A stretch of DNA of 64,000 bases. Origin: Methylibium rhizosphaerae (GTDB lineage: Bacteria > Pseudomonadota > Gammaproteobacteria > Burkholderiales > Burkholderiaceae_C). The position numbers and the translations under genes were made by a program. The stretch's first letter is position 1. Every line of letters starts with the position of its first letter. Location: NCBI RefSeq assembly GCF_006386545.1, contig NZ_SWAR01000028.1, positions 1-64,000 of the forward strand, given 5' to 3'. The notes under the pieces were generated by a model. That model had not been told where the DNA came from. It saw only the letters and a list, made by a program, of their open reading frames with translations, and made no database searches. Positions 916 to 29,243 of this stretch are shown here, piece after piece.

Positions 916-1902
916 ATGAATCGCAGGCAATGTGCCGGGCTCGTCGCCGGCCTGGCTCTCGTTCGCCCCGGCTTTGCGCAGGACAGGGCGGGGGTGCGGT
1001 GGAAGCTGGCCACCGGCTACCGGGCCGAGACCTTTCATGGGCGCAACCTGGCGCAGTTCGCCGCCGAGGCCGCGCAGGCCACCCAGGGCGTGCTGGCCAT
1101 CGAGCTGCATGCGAACGGCGCGTTGTTCAAGCTGGCCGACATCTGGCCGGCCTGCGAGCAGGGCCAGCTCGATGCAGGCGAGACCATCATGACCAGCCTG
1201 GTGAAGACGCTGCCCATCGCAGGCGCCGACTCGGTGCCCTTCGCGGTGAGCAGCTACGAGGACGCACGGCGCATGTGGCGGCACCAGCGTCCGCTGATCG
1301 AGCGGCAGTTCGCGGCCCGCGGGCTCGAGGTGCTGTACGCCGTGCCGTGGCCGCCGCAGGGACTGTTCTCGACCCGGCCGGTCGCGGTGTCGGCCGACCT
1401 CAAGGGCAGCCGCATGCGCACCTACAACCAGACGACGGTGCGCATCGCGCAGCTGCTGGGCGCCGCGCCGGTGGATGTCCCCATGGTCGACGTGGCCCGG
1501 GCCTTGGCGGCCGGCCGCATCGACACGATGATCACCTCCGCGGTCACCGGCGTGGAGAACCAGGTCTGGAGCCATGTGAAGCACTACTACGAGATCAATG
1601 CCTGGTTCCCCAAGAACATCGTGTTCGTGCGGCAGGCGGCGATGCGATCACTCGACGCCGCGCAGCAGCAGGCGGTGCGACGCGCCGCACTGGCGGCCGA
1701 GGCGCGCGGCTGGCAGGCCAGCATGACCGCCGCGCTCGAGTCGGTCGACGAGCTCAGGCGCCGCGGCATGAAGGTCGAGCGGGTGAGCCCCGAGTTCGAC
1801 AAGGAGATCAAGCGGCTGGGCGAGCGCTTCTCGCTCGAATGGATACGCGACGTCGGCCGAGAGGCCAATGAAATCTTCGTCCCCTACTACACACAACAGT
1901 GA
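916..1902 (+). CDS. dctP: TRAP transporter periplasmic substrate-binding protein (DctP family)
   Basis: A 328-residue protein with a short secretion signal ending near residue 21 (PGFAQ). It is followed by a DctP-like fold; the central segment GLFSTRPV...[11 protein letters not shown] matches the region that holds the substrate-contacting Arg in this family. An AGGAGG ribosome binding site at 903-908 sets the ATG. It delivers the ligand to the DctM permease encoded just upstream. The substrate cannot be read from sequence, but the next genes encode a 5-oxoprolinase-type enzyme and pyroglutamyl peptidase, so pyroglutamate or a related cyclic amide/carboxylate is the likely ligand (inference). 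Confidence 0.88.
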
Positions 1903-1963
1903 ATCCTTCGCGCGGGCCACGCCTACAGTCGTGCCGGCGCATCCAACTGAGTCAGATCGCAAG

Positions 1964-5647
<3,684 letters not shown>

Positions 5648-7069: not shown

Positions 7070-7270
7070 TCAGACCTCGCCCGACTCGCTGTAGCGCCGC
7101 CAGCGCTTCATCGCGGCTTCCATCGTCTCGACCTGCCGCTCGAAGCGCGGGCAGGCCTTGCAGGCCATGAGGTGCAGGCGCAGCGCGAGGCGTTCGACCC
7201 AGGGCAGCGCGCGGTCCTGCCGGCTGAGCAGGAGCGCAGCGGATTCGCGGCATGTACGTCTGAGCCTCAT
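7070..7270 (-). CDS. Small zinc-finger anti-sigma factor (ZAS/zf-HC2-like)
   Basis: A 66-residue basic protein containing His33-x3-Cys37-x2-Cys40 plus an upstream Cys7, the ligand pattern of zinc-binding anti-sigma domains. There is no membrane helix, so it would be a cytosolic anti-sigma factor. Its ATG overlaps the TGA of the sigma factor gene (ATGA), so the two are translationally coupled. A longer in-frame start at 7375 exists but adds only unconserved sequence lying within the sigma gene. It most likely holds the adjacent ECF sigma factor inactive until a redox or metal signal; the signal is inferred, not visible. Confidence 0.75.
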   Translation of the reverse strand: MRLRRTCRESAALLLSRQDRALPWVERLALRLHLMACKACPRFERQVETMEAAMKRWRRYSESGEV

Positions 7271-7854
7271 CGCGCGGTTCCCTTTTTCGTGGCGGCCGTG
7301 GCGCTTGCCTCTGCGAACCAGTTGAGCTGCAGGCATTCGCGCAGCCGCAGCCGCGCACGGTGCAGCATGACCCACAGGTTGGTCGGCGTCACGCTCAGTT
7401 CCTTACAGATCTCGTCGGTGTCGAGTTCCAGCCATTCACGCATGAGGAACACCCGCCCCAGCTGGTTGGGCAGCTTCTCGGTGCAGGCCTCGATGACGGC
7501 CATGAACTGGTCCTGCCGCAGCGCCGCCTGCGGGTCGCCCCACTCGGCCGGCAGCTCGCGGAAGTGGCCGTCTTCCTTGAACAGCAGGTCGAACTCGTCG
7601 CCTTCGGCGTCTTCGGCGGTGAGGGCGCATTCGCGGGTGTGGCGCCGCAGCTGGTCGACCACCTTGTGCTTGAGGATGCCCACCAGCCAGGTGCGCACCT
7701 GCGAGCGCCCGGCAAAGGCCTGCGGCTTCTCGAGCGCGGCCACGAGGGTGTCGGACACCGCGTCTTCGGCCCAGGCGTCGTTGCGCAGCTGCAGCCGGGC
7801 ATAGCGCAGCAGGTGCACCCGGTGGCTGTCGAGGTCGATGGCGAGATCGTTCAT
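7267..7854 (-). CDS. RNA polymerase ECF sigma factor
   Basis: About 195 residues with a region 2 helix (HLLRYARLQLRNDAWAEDAV, then SDTLVAALE) and a region 4 helix-turn-helix near the C-terminus (LDTDEICKELSVTPTNLWVM, then LHRARLRLREC). This is the standard layout of group IV (ECF) sigma factors; region 4 resembles the RpoE/SigF-like subset paired with short zinc anti-sigma proteins. I chose ATG 7854; another ATG at 7884 would add ten residues. It is divergent, with about 100 bp between, from the four-gene peptide-modification cluster starting at 7958, which is its most probable regulon, as in known bufferin systems. Confidence 0.85.
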   Translation of the reverse strand: MNDLAIDLDSHRVHLLRYARLQLRNDAWAEDAVSDTLVAALEKPQAFAGRSQVRTWLVGILKHKVVDQLRRHTRECALTAEDAEGDEFDLLFKEDGHFRELPAEWGDPQAALRQDQFMAVIEACTEKLPNQLGRVFLMREWLELDTDEICKELSVTPTNLWVMLHRARLRLRECLQLNWFAEASATAATKKGTAR

Positions 7855-7865
7855 TTGGGCGGCAG

Positions 7866-7893
7866 TGTAAGTAATCGACGGCATGGCGCGACA
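7866..7893 (+). promoter_or_regulatory. Possible ECF-type promoter for the bufferin-like cluster
   Basis: TGTAAGT at 7866-7872 and CGACA at 7889-7893 are separated by 16 bp, resembling the GTAAC / CGAA-type boxes of SigF-like ECF promoters. They lie about 65 bp before the peptide gene start, in the gap between the divergent sigma gene and the cluster. The match is loose and was made by eye. Confidence 0.3.
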
Positions 7894-7957
7894 CACGCTC
7901 GTCGCCGCAAGGTCTGCGGCGGCTCTTTTCGACAACGCACCCCCAAAGGAGCTCACC

Positions 7958-8245
7958 ATGAACCAACGCCTCGTCGTCTCTTCCGCCCTCGCTTCCGTGC
8001 TCGCCATGGGCCTCATCGGCGCCGCCGGCGCGGCCGACGACGCCAAGTCGGCCGGCAAGGAAAAGTGCTACGGCATCGCCAAGGCCGGCCAGAACGACTG
8101 CGCCAACCTTGCCGGCACCCATTCGTGCGCCGGCCAGTCCAAGATGGACAACGACCCGGGCGACTGGAAGTACGTGGCCAAGGGCACCTGCAAGCAGATG
8201 AACGGCATGTCGGCCGAAGAAGCCAAGATGAAGGCCAAGAAGTAA
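7958..8245 (+). CDS. bufA: DUF2282 secreted four-cysteine peptide precursor (bufferin, BufA1-like)
   Basis: A 95-residue protein with a clear Sec signal peptide (hydrophobic residues 5-22, cleavage near AGA-AD at 25-26). The mature part of about 70 residues carries four cysteines at 37, 48, 57 and 78 in the DUF2282 pattern [14 protein letters not shown]...HSCAGQS...KGTC. In the recently described bufferins such precursors are modified on cysteine by an MNIO enzyme and bind copper in the periplasm. An AAGGAG site seven bases upstream fixes the ATG. The MNIO, DUF2063 and DoxX genes follow directly. The mature product and metal specificity here are inferred from the family. Confidence 0.87.
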
Positions 8246-8252
8246 GCCGGCG

Positions 8253-9137
8253 GTGAACGAAGCAGCGGCGGCCGACATGAACGCACCTCTTTGCACCGGC
8301 ATCGGCTTTCGCCAGCCGCACTACCGCGAGCTGTTGGAGCGCAGGCCGCCGCTGGCTTTCCTCGAAGTGCATTCCGAGAACTTCTTTGCCGAGGGCGGTG
8401 CGGCGCTGGCCGTGCTGCACGAGGCCAGGAGCCACTATGACGTGAGCCTGCACGGCGTGGGCCTCGCGCTTGGCTCGGCGGCGGGGCTGGACCGATGGCA
8501 CCTCGAGCAGCTCGCGCGGCTGGTCGATCGCATCGAGCCGGTGCGGGTGAGCGACCACGCCTGCTTCGCGCGGGCGCCGCTGCGGGCCGGTGCAGCCCCC
8601 ACCCACGGCAACGACCTGCTGCCGGTCGCCTTCACGCCGGCCTCGCTGGACATCATGGCGGCCAACGTGTCGGCGGTGCAGGACCGGCTCGGGCGGCCCA
8701 TCCTCGTGGAGAACCTGTCGGCCTACCTGGGCTGGGCCGACGACTCGATGAGCGAACCCGAATTCTTCAACCGCCTGGCGCGGCGCACCGGCTGCGGCCT
8801 GCTGCTGGACGTGAACAACATCGTGGTCAACCAGCTCAATGCGGGCGCCGGCGATGCAGTGGCGGCGGCGAAGCGTTTTGTCGATGCCATCGATGCGCAG
8901 GCCGTCGGCGAGATCCACCTGGCCGGCTACGACGACAGCGGCGATCTCGTGATCGACGACCACGGCAGCCGGGTGCATGCGCCGGTGTGGCAGGTGTTCG
9001 AGCATGCGATGGGCAGGCTGCGCGGCACGCCGGTGCTTGTCGAGTGGGATACGCGCCTGCCGGCGCTGGACGTGCTGCTCGGCGAGGCGGCCGCGGCCGA
9101 GGCCCGCTGCGCCGTCCATGAAGAGGTTGCGGCATGA
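8253..9137 (+). CDS. bufB: MNIO-family (DUF692) multinuclear iron enzyme, BufB-like peptide modifier
   Basis: About 294 residues, TIM-barrel DUF692 family. Visible candidate metal ligands in order are the His/Glu pair in [10 protein letters not shown] (residues 36-45), [10 protein letters not shown], Glu in [10 protein letters not shown], Asp/Asn in [12 protein letters not shown], His in [10 protein letters not shown] and Glu in [14 protein letters not shown] enzymes use two or three irons and oxygen to rewrite cysteine residues in peptide precursors; here the substrate should be the upstream four-Cys peptide. GTG 8253 follows the precursor stop by 7 bp; ATG 8277 (eight residues shorter) is an equally good start. 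The stop overlaps the next gene by ATGA. Confidence 0.9.
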
Positions 9138-9931
9138 ACACCCGCGAGGCCACACGCCAGCAACTGCTGCTGCGCGCCATCGTGTCGCGCGGCGACGGCC
9201 TGGCACTCAACGGCTGGGTGCGCGAAAGCGGCGCCCGCATGGGCCGCGGGCTGGCGGCCTACCAGGCCAACCTGGGCGCTGCAGCCGAACGCGCCCTGGC
9301 CGGCAGCTTCCCGACCGTGCAGCAGCTCCTGGGCGAGGAGTCGTTCGCTGCCATGGCCCGGGACTTCGTGCGCCGGCGCCCGCCCGCGCGGGGCGACCTC
9401 GCCTGGCTGGGCGAGTCGCTGCCGGCCTTCATCGCCGACGCCGAAGGCCTGCGCAGCGAGCCCTACCTCGCCGACGTGGCCCGCCTCGAATGGGCGGTGC
9501 AGCGCGCCGAAGCGGCCGCGGATGACGACGGCCCGCTCTGCGGGCTAGAGCAGCTCGCGGCGCATGAGCCGTCGCGGCTCGCCTTGCGGTTCAGGGCCGG
9601 CACGGGCATGGTGGCCTCGTCCTGGCCGGTGGCCGGCATCTGGCTGGCCCATCGCAGCGATGCGAGCGATCGCTTCGACGGACTGTGGGAAGCCTTTGCC
9701 GCCGGCCGCGGCGAGACGGCGCTGGTGTGGCGCCGGGGGTGGCGCGCACAGGTGTGTGCGCTCGACGCGTCTGATGTGCCGTTCACCCGCGCGGCCATCG
9801 AAGGCCGCGACCTGGCTGCCGCGCTCGATGCCGCCGGCAGCTCGTTCGCCTTCGACGCCTGGCTCGCGCGCGCGCTGCGCGAGGGCTGGATCGCGGGCAT
9901 CGACCTCCTTTCCAACTCACCGGAGACCTGA
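9134..9931 (+). CDS. bufC: DUF2063 family protein, BufC-like partner of the MNIO enzyme
   Basis: A 265-residue protein whose N-terminal half ([43 protein letters not shown]) is the DUF2063 domain, once named a putative DNA-binding domain. DUF2063 proteins accompany DUF692 enzymes and are thought to act as partner or recognition subunits that present the peptide substrate, by analogy with the MbnB/MbnC methanobactin pair. Its start overlaps the MNIO stop codon (ATGA), consistent with a stoichiometric complex. The C-terminal half is less conserved, with no motif I recognise. Confidence 0.85.
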
Positions 9932-9933
9932 CC

Positions 9934-10401
9934 ATGCAAGCCGCTCATCAACCCGCCTGGCAGCGCCTGGAAGCGCTGTGGCAGCGCGCCGTGTCGGCGC
10001 TCGAAGCGCTGCAGCCGGCCGCGCAGCTGGCGGCGCGCCTGTACGTGGCCAAGGTGTTCTTCCTGTCGGGGCTCACCAAGATCCGCGACTGGGAGACCAC
10101 GCTCGCGCTGTTCACCGACGAGTACCAGGTGCCGCTGCTGCCGCCCGAGCTGGCCGCGCCGCTGGGCACCGCGGGTGAGCTGGTGCTGCCGGTGCTGCTG
10201 GTGCTCGGCCTGGGCGGGCGGCTTGCCGCGGCGGGGCTGTTCGTGGTGAACGTGGTCGCCGTGCTGAGCCTGGCCGAGATCGCCGAAGCGGCGCTGCAGC
10301 AGCACGTGTTCTGGGGCAGCCTGCTGTTGGGGCTCGTGCTGTGGGGCCCGGGGCGGTGGTCGGTCGACGCCTTCGTCTGGCGCCGCGGCCGCCGGCAGTG
10401 A
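9934..10401 (+). CDS. DoxX-family membrane protein of the bufferin-like cluster
   Basis: A 155-residue protein with four hydrophobic segments and the DoxX signature near the start of the first one (YVAKVFFLSGLTKIRDWE). It begins two bases after the DUF2063 stop codon, so it belongs to the same operon. DoxX proteins of MNIO clusters are inner-membrane proteins suspected to act in redox chemistry or thiol handling for the modified peptide; the exact role is not established. An amphipathic N-terminal 35-residue stretch precedes the first helix. Confidence 0.85.
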   Translation: MQAAHQPAWQRLEALWQRAVSALEALQPAAQLAARLYVAKVFFLSGLTKIRDWETTLALFTDEYQVPLLPPELAAPLGTAGELVLPVLLVLGLGGRLAAAGLFVVNVVAVLSLAEIAEAALQQHVFWGSLLLGLVLWGPGRWSVDAFVWRRGRRQ

Positions 10402-29020: not shown

Positions 29021-29122
29021 GGATGGCAGTCCTCTTCATGACTTGAAGATCCCGAAGACACGCACTTAAGAAGAAGCAGTGTGCGGTCCGAGGGCTGCCC
29101 AGGCGAACGGCGGAAACGACGC

Positions 29123-29159
29123 GGGGAGCGCCGGCTGCGCTCCCCGGTGGTGCACCACC
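29123..29159 (-). promoter_or_regulatory. Two adjacent inverted repeats between the transglycosylase gene and glyA
   Basis: GGGGAGCGC (29123-29131) pairs with GCGCTCCCC (29137-29145) across a 5-nt loop, immediately followed by the perfect 14-bp palindrome GGTGGTGCACCACC (29146-29159). On the minus strand, which carries both flanking genes, the hairpin lacks a clean T-run, so it may be a weak terminator for the upstream gene, a leader structure of glyA, or an operator. I do not recognise a known riboswitch. Confidence 0.45.
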
Positions 29160-29243
29160 TCGGCCTTGACGGCCTTATCGCCAGTTGCGCAGCTTGCGCA
29201 GTGTAGCGGAGGCGATGCGTCGGCCGCGAGATCGCCCTACTAC

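Follow-up and report, generated by a model that had tools for sequence, protein, structure and literature searches.

The systems closest to the locus described here, a bufferin-type operon with a divergent pair of extracytoplasmic function (ECF) sigma and anti-sigma factor genes, are known from other Pseudomonadota and, in one respect, from Corynebacterium. Our locus lies in a 64-kb window (the whole stretch of DNA analysed, with coordinates counted from its first letter) of the Methylibium rhizosphaerae genome (GCF_006386545.1). The gigPABT-rpoQ-rsqA system of Cupriavidus metallidurans resembles it in the four operon genes, their order and the divergent sigma/anti-sigma pair; however, its anti-sigma factor RsqA is described as membrane-bound (PMC10304878), whereas that of Methylibium is a soluble protein of 66 aa of the zinc anti-sigma (ZAS) type. 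An NrsF orthologue of C. metallidurans appears in the alignment of PMC3511200. In Caulobacter, a DUF2282-DUF692-DUF2063-DoxX operon is likewise under an ECF sigma factor, SigF, here paired with the anti-sigma factor NrsF (PMC3511200, PMC12452194). The SigF regulon holds a YedY/MsrP-like gene, a further likeness to the regulon considered below, but sigF itself has a promoter like those of the SigF targets, whereas the Methylibium locus has no such element before the sigma gene and one embedded before the anti-sigma gene. The Neisseria sigmaE-MseR and Haemophilus RpoE2-HrsE pairs share with our locus the ECF sigma factor and the soluble ZAS-type anti-sigma factor (67 aa for HrsE), and control msrAB together with MNIO-DUF2063-DoxX clusters (PMC2893595, PMC7907618). 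Their precursors are EGKCG-repeat peptides rather than DUF2282 proteins; the Neisseria sigma gene lies inside the same operon and is autoregulated, and the Haemophilus cluster lies apart from its sigma gene. SigH-RshA of Corynebacterium glutamicum offers a precedent for a single feature, a SigH-dependent promoter inside sigH that transcribes the anti-sigma gene only (PMC3489674), but belongs to another phylum, has an unrelated regulon and lacks a bufferin operon.

Against this background, we consider it likely that the Methylibium Buf1 operon is controlled by an ECF sigma factor, which is restrained by a zinc anti-sigma factor in the cytoplasm, and that it forms an oxidant-triggered system in which a copper-binding peptide is joined to methionine repair, with feedback through the anti-sigma factor alone. 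For the family, we lean towards a branch of bufferin loci in which the NrsF-type switch has been replaced by a soluble zinc anti-sigma factor with a new promoter specificity. In this branch the sigma factor would not be autoregulated and an embedded, selected promoter would make anti-sigma factor only; feedback would be purely negative, and copper-binding peptides would come to belong to a methionine-oxidation regulon. Near Buf1 clusters, sigma factors and anti-sigma factors of the NrsF type have already been described (PMC12452194), and that survey of the bufferin landscape makes no mention of zf-HC2 or zinc anti-sigma factors. In the literature searched, we found no earlier description of the regulator swap, the promoter swap or the embedded promoter.

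Regulators and promoters of the bufferin loci

The positions of DUF2282, ZAS (NF052368) and NrsF genes were compared in 151 genomes of the family to which the window belongs, with a neighbourhood of 5 kb. A ZAS gene lies near 45 of the 99 DUF2282 places, in every case divergent and upstream, while NrsF is found near 17, neither type near 37, and both together at none. Dozens of named genomes show the identical gene order, and this recurrence, together with the divergent anti-sigma/DUF2282 pair at 45 of the 99 places, takes the layout beyond chance. An accidental adjoining of sigma pair and operon was rejected, as all 45 ZAS-adjacent pairs are divergent. The two types also differ in promoter, GTAAGG-N15/16-CGAC at ZAS loci versus GTAACC-N16-CGAA at NrsF loci. 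At the latter, GTAACC with CGAA stands before bufA in 13/13 cases (a CGTA box in one, 17-nt spacing in one) and, as in Caulobacter, a GTAACC/CGAA element also precedes the sigma-nrsF genes in 12/13. A copy of the promoter directed at the sigma gene was searched for in the ZAS loci and none was found. The M. rhizosphaerae genome yielded no NrsF gene and carries GTAAGT-N16-CGAC instead, which sets it apart from the SigF-NrsF (ECF16) type.

For the bufferin operon, a sigma-dependent promoter is predicted at 7865..7895 (+ strand), 91 nt upstream of bufA, with the sequence GTAAGT-N16-CGACACA. When both strands of the window were scored with a matrix built from relatives only, it was the top site, at 27.5 bits. 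Of 81 bufA upstream sequences, 45 contain a GTAA-type box followed at 14-18 nt by a CG box (6.9 in shuffles), and among 40 loci with GTAA(G/T)-N15/16-CGAC the spacing is 15 nt in 33 and 16 nt in 7. The strict form precedes 25/45 ZAS-adjacent DUF2282 genes versus 5/54 others. In many Hydrogenophaga/Polaromonas-type loci (L020, L037, L040, L044, L062 and others), a secreted TlpA/redoxin-like gene with a CxxC motif (CAVCRDKMPELR) is inserted between sigma gene and bufA and frequently carries a ZAS-type promoter of its own.

The second-ranked site of the same scan (19.4 bits, the following one reaching 8.5) falls within the sigma gene, in the codons for ICKELSVTPTN. This predicted promoter, TGTAAGGAACTGAGCGTGACGCCGAC (7382..7407, - strand), is directed toward the anti-sigma gene, with its CGAC end 112 nt upstream of the anti-sigma ATG. 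Across the 151 genomes, 35 of the 76 exact matches to TGTAAGGAN14CGAC sit 97-192 nt upstream of a ZAS gene on the same strand. The embedded GTAAGG-N15-CGAC could merely follow from the conserved protein sequence ICKELxxTPTN, with no internal promoter, as its codons lie where sigma region 4 is conserved and the protein dictates several bases of the boxes. We regard this explanation as quite improbable. The site is retained in 36 of 51 sigma genes, whereas resampling of synonymous codons with each locus's own codon usage yields it in 2.0 of the 51, with a maximum of 7 in 500 runs. Moreover, in a scan of silent positions in 41 sigma genes that share less than 85% identity, the two informative positions come first and fifth among 176 columns. 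The first belongs to the residue supplying the CG of the CGAC box, which varies between P, S, A and T and is still encoded by NCG, its codon ending in G in 37 of the 41 genes versus 15 expected. The second belongs to the Cys of the site, where TGT is used at 36:7, compared with 28:102 for the other Cys of the same sigma genes and 105:614 in neighbouring genes; these counts come from related genomes that are not fully independent, so that kinship inflates them, but the other Cys columns are equally related. Apparently, the embedded promoter is kept by unusual synonymous codons and would serve feedback through the anti-sigma factor. Silent columns at aa 32, 51, 53 and 61 of the sigma gene (window about 7670-7762, - strand) are also unusually conserved in relatives, without explanation.

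The peptide, its enzymes and the zinc anti-sigma factor

All six open reading frames (ORFs) that an earlier sequence-only reading had placed at 7070-10401 are present there, and the Pfam and NCBIfam assignments agree with it. On the + strand, bufA (7958..8245) encodes the Buf1/DUF2282 precursor of 95 aa (PF10048, 3.7e-26). It is followed by the BufB-like MNIO enzyme of the DUF692 family (8253..9137; PF05114, 2.5e-90), the BufC / PME1-like DUF2063 partner protein (9134..9931; PF09836, 7.6e-18) and a GigT / HvfX-like DoxX-family membrane protein (9934..10401; PF07681, 1.1e-17). The successive intergenic distances are 7, -4 and 2 nt, the MNIO and DUF2063 genes sharing 4 nt. On the - strand, the gene of the 195-aa ECF sigma factor (7267..7854; TIGR02943, 232 bits vs a cut-off of 162; NF009173, 303 bits vs a cut-off of 255) shares 4 nt with that of the anti-sigma factor (7070..7270). 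The genome holds a single DUF2282 gene and a single DUF692 gene.

Judged by its sequence, the peptide operon belongs to the published kind of Buf1 bufferin (captophorin) clusters. The earlier suggestion of a bufferin system thus stands, as DUF2282 is the Buf1 signature and bufA, MNIO, DUF2063 and DoxX are the published core genes (PMC12452194). A DUF2282 precursor with four Cys is encoded next to MNIO and DUF2063 (PME1) genes, and the PF10048 match spans all four Cys (positions 37, 48, 57 and 78), which are invariant in 81/81 aligned sequences. By inspection only, the N-terminus is of the Sec-type signal peptide kind. The MNIO enzyme aligns with the Histophilus MNIO structure PDB 3BWW (5.9e-32) and retains the His/Asp/Glu motifs. 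Searching the DUF2063 protein against the PDB with phmmer gave no match; a profile of 15 DUF2063 sequences returned unconvincing matches to a designed protein (Tako8), did not recover 3DEE and was set aside. Such peptides have been grouped as captophorins, with 5-thiooxazoles and copper binding (PMC13097082), and copper is bound by the characterised bufferins, oxazolin, fontiphorin and gonophorin (PMC12452194, PMC13097082). The sequence-only reading had called the metal and the modified Cys unknown; for the family as a whole, metal and chemistry are no longer open, with copper and Cys-derived thiooxazoles published for relatives. In the founding Caulobacter study, thiooxazoles were reportedly assigned to two of the four Cys.

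The assignment of the 66-aa protein as a zinc anti-sigma factor is borne out by its family matches (zf-HC2, PF13490, 5.2e-6; NF052368, 65.3 bits vs a cut-off of 50) and by the conservation of its ligands. Beyond the HxxxCxxC motif already recognised, there is a fourth ligand, Cys7, and C7, H33, C37 and C40 are invariant in 48/48 sequences. Their pattern, C7-x25-H33-x3-C37-x2-C40, has the spacing of C4/H30/C34/C37 in MseR, and no transmembrane stretch was seen in the 66 aa. Hx3Cx2C with an upstream Cys at fixed spacing in a soluble protein is the sequence signature of ZAS anti-sigma factors of the MseR/HrsE/RsrA type. A search against the PDB gave no meaningful relative. One locus of Polaromonas eurypsychrophila (L071 3452-5001) has an altered anti-sigma reading frame and a sigma match ~ 500 nt off, possibly reflecting decay or a frameshift.

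Elsewhere in the window, hydantoinase/oxoprolinase A and B subunits are fused in one gene of 1259 aa (1868-5647, + strand), and a ZMP/ZTP riboswitch (Rfam RF01750, 59.3 bits) lies at 29090-29198 (- strand).

Promoter matches before other genes

The regulatory pair had been viewed as self-contained. This is not entirely accurate, as good matches to the promoter also stand upstream of msrP and egtB in the M. rhizosphaerae genome. At msrP, GTAAGG-N16-CGACAGA lies 84 nt upstream of the ATG (17.8 bits; L158 1366-1450, C2), its -35-like box overlapping the stop codon of the upstream gene. At egtB, the gene of an ergothioneine synthase, the match is found ~ 80 nt upstream (20.2 bits; C143:213593-213622). 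The latter match was not seen in relatives and is one site in one genome; egtB is perhaps a member of the regulon. Searching the genome with TGTAAGNAN14-15CGAC returned three matches, namely the bufA promoter, the site inside the sigma gene and the site before egtB.

In the other genomes of the family, further copies of the strict motif are mostly located 30-120 nt upstream of an ORF. The genes downstream that recur encode MsrA, MsrB, MsrP, BufA2, ArsS, DUF1223, thioredoxin-like and mercuric-reductase-like proteins, with a methionine-rich repeat lipoprotein and a catalase-like protein as single cases. The small lipoprotein consists of methionine-rich MKKEEMM repeats (L100 51-end) and resembles hypochlorite-scavenging methionine-rich peptides. 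These neighbours are suggestive of a promoter link to methionine-repair genes, though not an exclusive one. The ZAS-type motif also stands before BufA2-type bufferin genes (L101, L115, L120, L125), so that the two bufferin families may share a sigma factor; Buf2 clusters have been described without sigma factor genes.

Trigger and proposed working

The scheme that we infer, from promoter activity and sigma-promoter pairing to trigger, peptide modification and copper binding, would begin at the zinc site. Oxidation, or a thiol-reactive metal, would hit the Cys7/His33/Cys37/Cys40 site, zinc would be lost and the sigma factor freed. The freed sigma factor would then start GTAAGG-type promoters, with the bufA-MNIO-DUF2063-doxX operon as first target. 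The embedded promoter, as second target, would raise the anti-sigma factor alone and close the response, and a third set elsewhere in the genome would include at least msrP and perhaps egtB. The MNIO-DUF2063 pair would convert Cys of the cytoplasmic precursor to thiooxazoles; the exported peptide would buffer periplasmic copper while Msr enzymes mend oxidised methionine. At NrsF-type loci, sigma and anti-sigma factor would instead be amplified together.

Several observations weigh against this reading. The MNIO enzyme scores 306 bits against NF050167 (MNIO_BufB) and misses the cut-off of 310 by 4 bits, and the DoxX protein reaches 58 bits against HvfX (NF050144), under the cut-off of 80. The three strict-core matches in the M. 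rhizosphaerae genome are near chance level, a control pattern giving four. Genome-wide match counts were rejected as evidence because the reversed control pattern is equally frequent, which leaves only the location of matches informative. The genome's own msrB has no promoter site and was dropped as a regulon member. In genomes with no detected ZAS gene, 3 of 14 motif matches also precede msr or DUF1223 genes, so sigma factor and promoter are not strictly coupled. Finally, the MseR-type system of N. meningitidis was not activated by oxidants (PMC2893595), and the gig and sigF operons, which are related, react to copper, gold, chromate and cadmium.

Copper is a possible trigger. The sigma pair might itself sense copper (or gold), the operon being a dedicated metal response like gigPABT and the msr promoters belonging to other sigma factors. 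This would agree with the behaviour of gigPABT in C. metallidurans, which copper and gold induce as Cu(II) and Au(III) (PMC10304878), with the chromate and cadmium response of the Caulobacter sigF operons (PMC3511200) and with the fact that copper can displace zinc from a Cys/His site. We nevertheless find it unlikely, since those systems use membrane NrsF and the promoter of Caulobacter and of the examined NrsF loci is a different one. Moreover, the ZAS-type promoter is found again upstream of msrA, msrB and msrP and of a catalase-like gene, and msrAB is under the control of HrsE and MseR, which are ZAS homologues. Somewhat less likely still is a peptide that binds a metal other than copper or acts mainly as a sacrificial thiol or oxidant scavenger. 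A promoter common to msr genes would suit such a role, and functions besides copper are anticipated by the authors of PMC12452194, but all the characterised relatives named above bind copper. As trigger, attack on the ZAS protein by an oxidant (or a thiol-reactive metal) seems to us the better bet, with copper as what the product binds. It is preferred because the shared promoter precedes methionine sulfoxide reductases elsewhere and homologous sigma/anti-sigma pairs control msrAB; among the kin, the HrsE system lends support with HOCl and H2O2 (PMC7907618).

Bufferin-type clusters are common across Pseudomonadota, and most descriptions of their switches concern NrsF-type systems and the EGKCG clusters found in Neisseria and Haemophilus. 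In the genomes compared, one peptide operon comes with either of two regulator-promoter pairs and never with both, which makes the question of metal or oxidant addressable between sister genera. The embedded promoter suggests that regulatory information is carried at synonymous sites of the sigma gene, and the common promoter would connect copper-binding peptides with periplasmic methionine sulfoxide repair.

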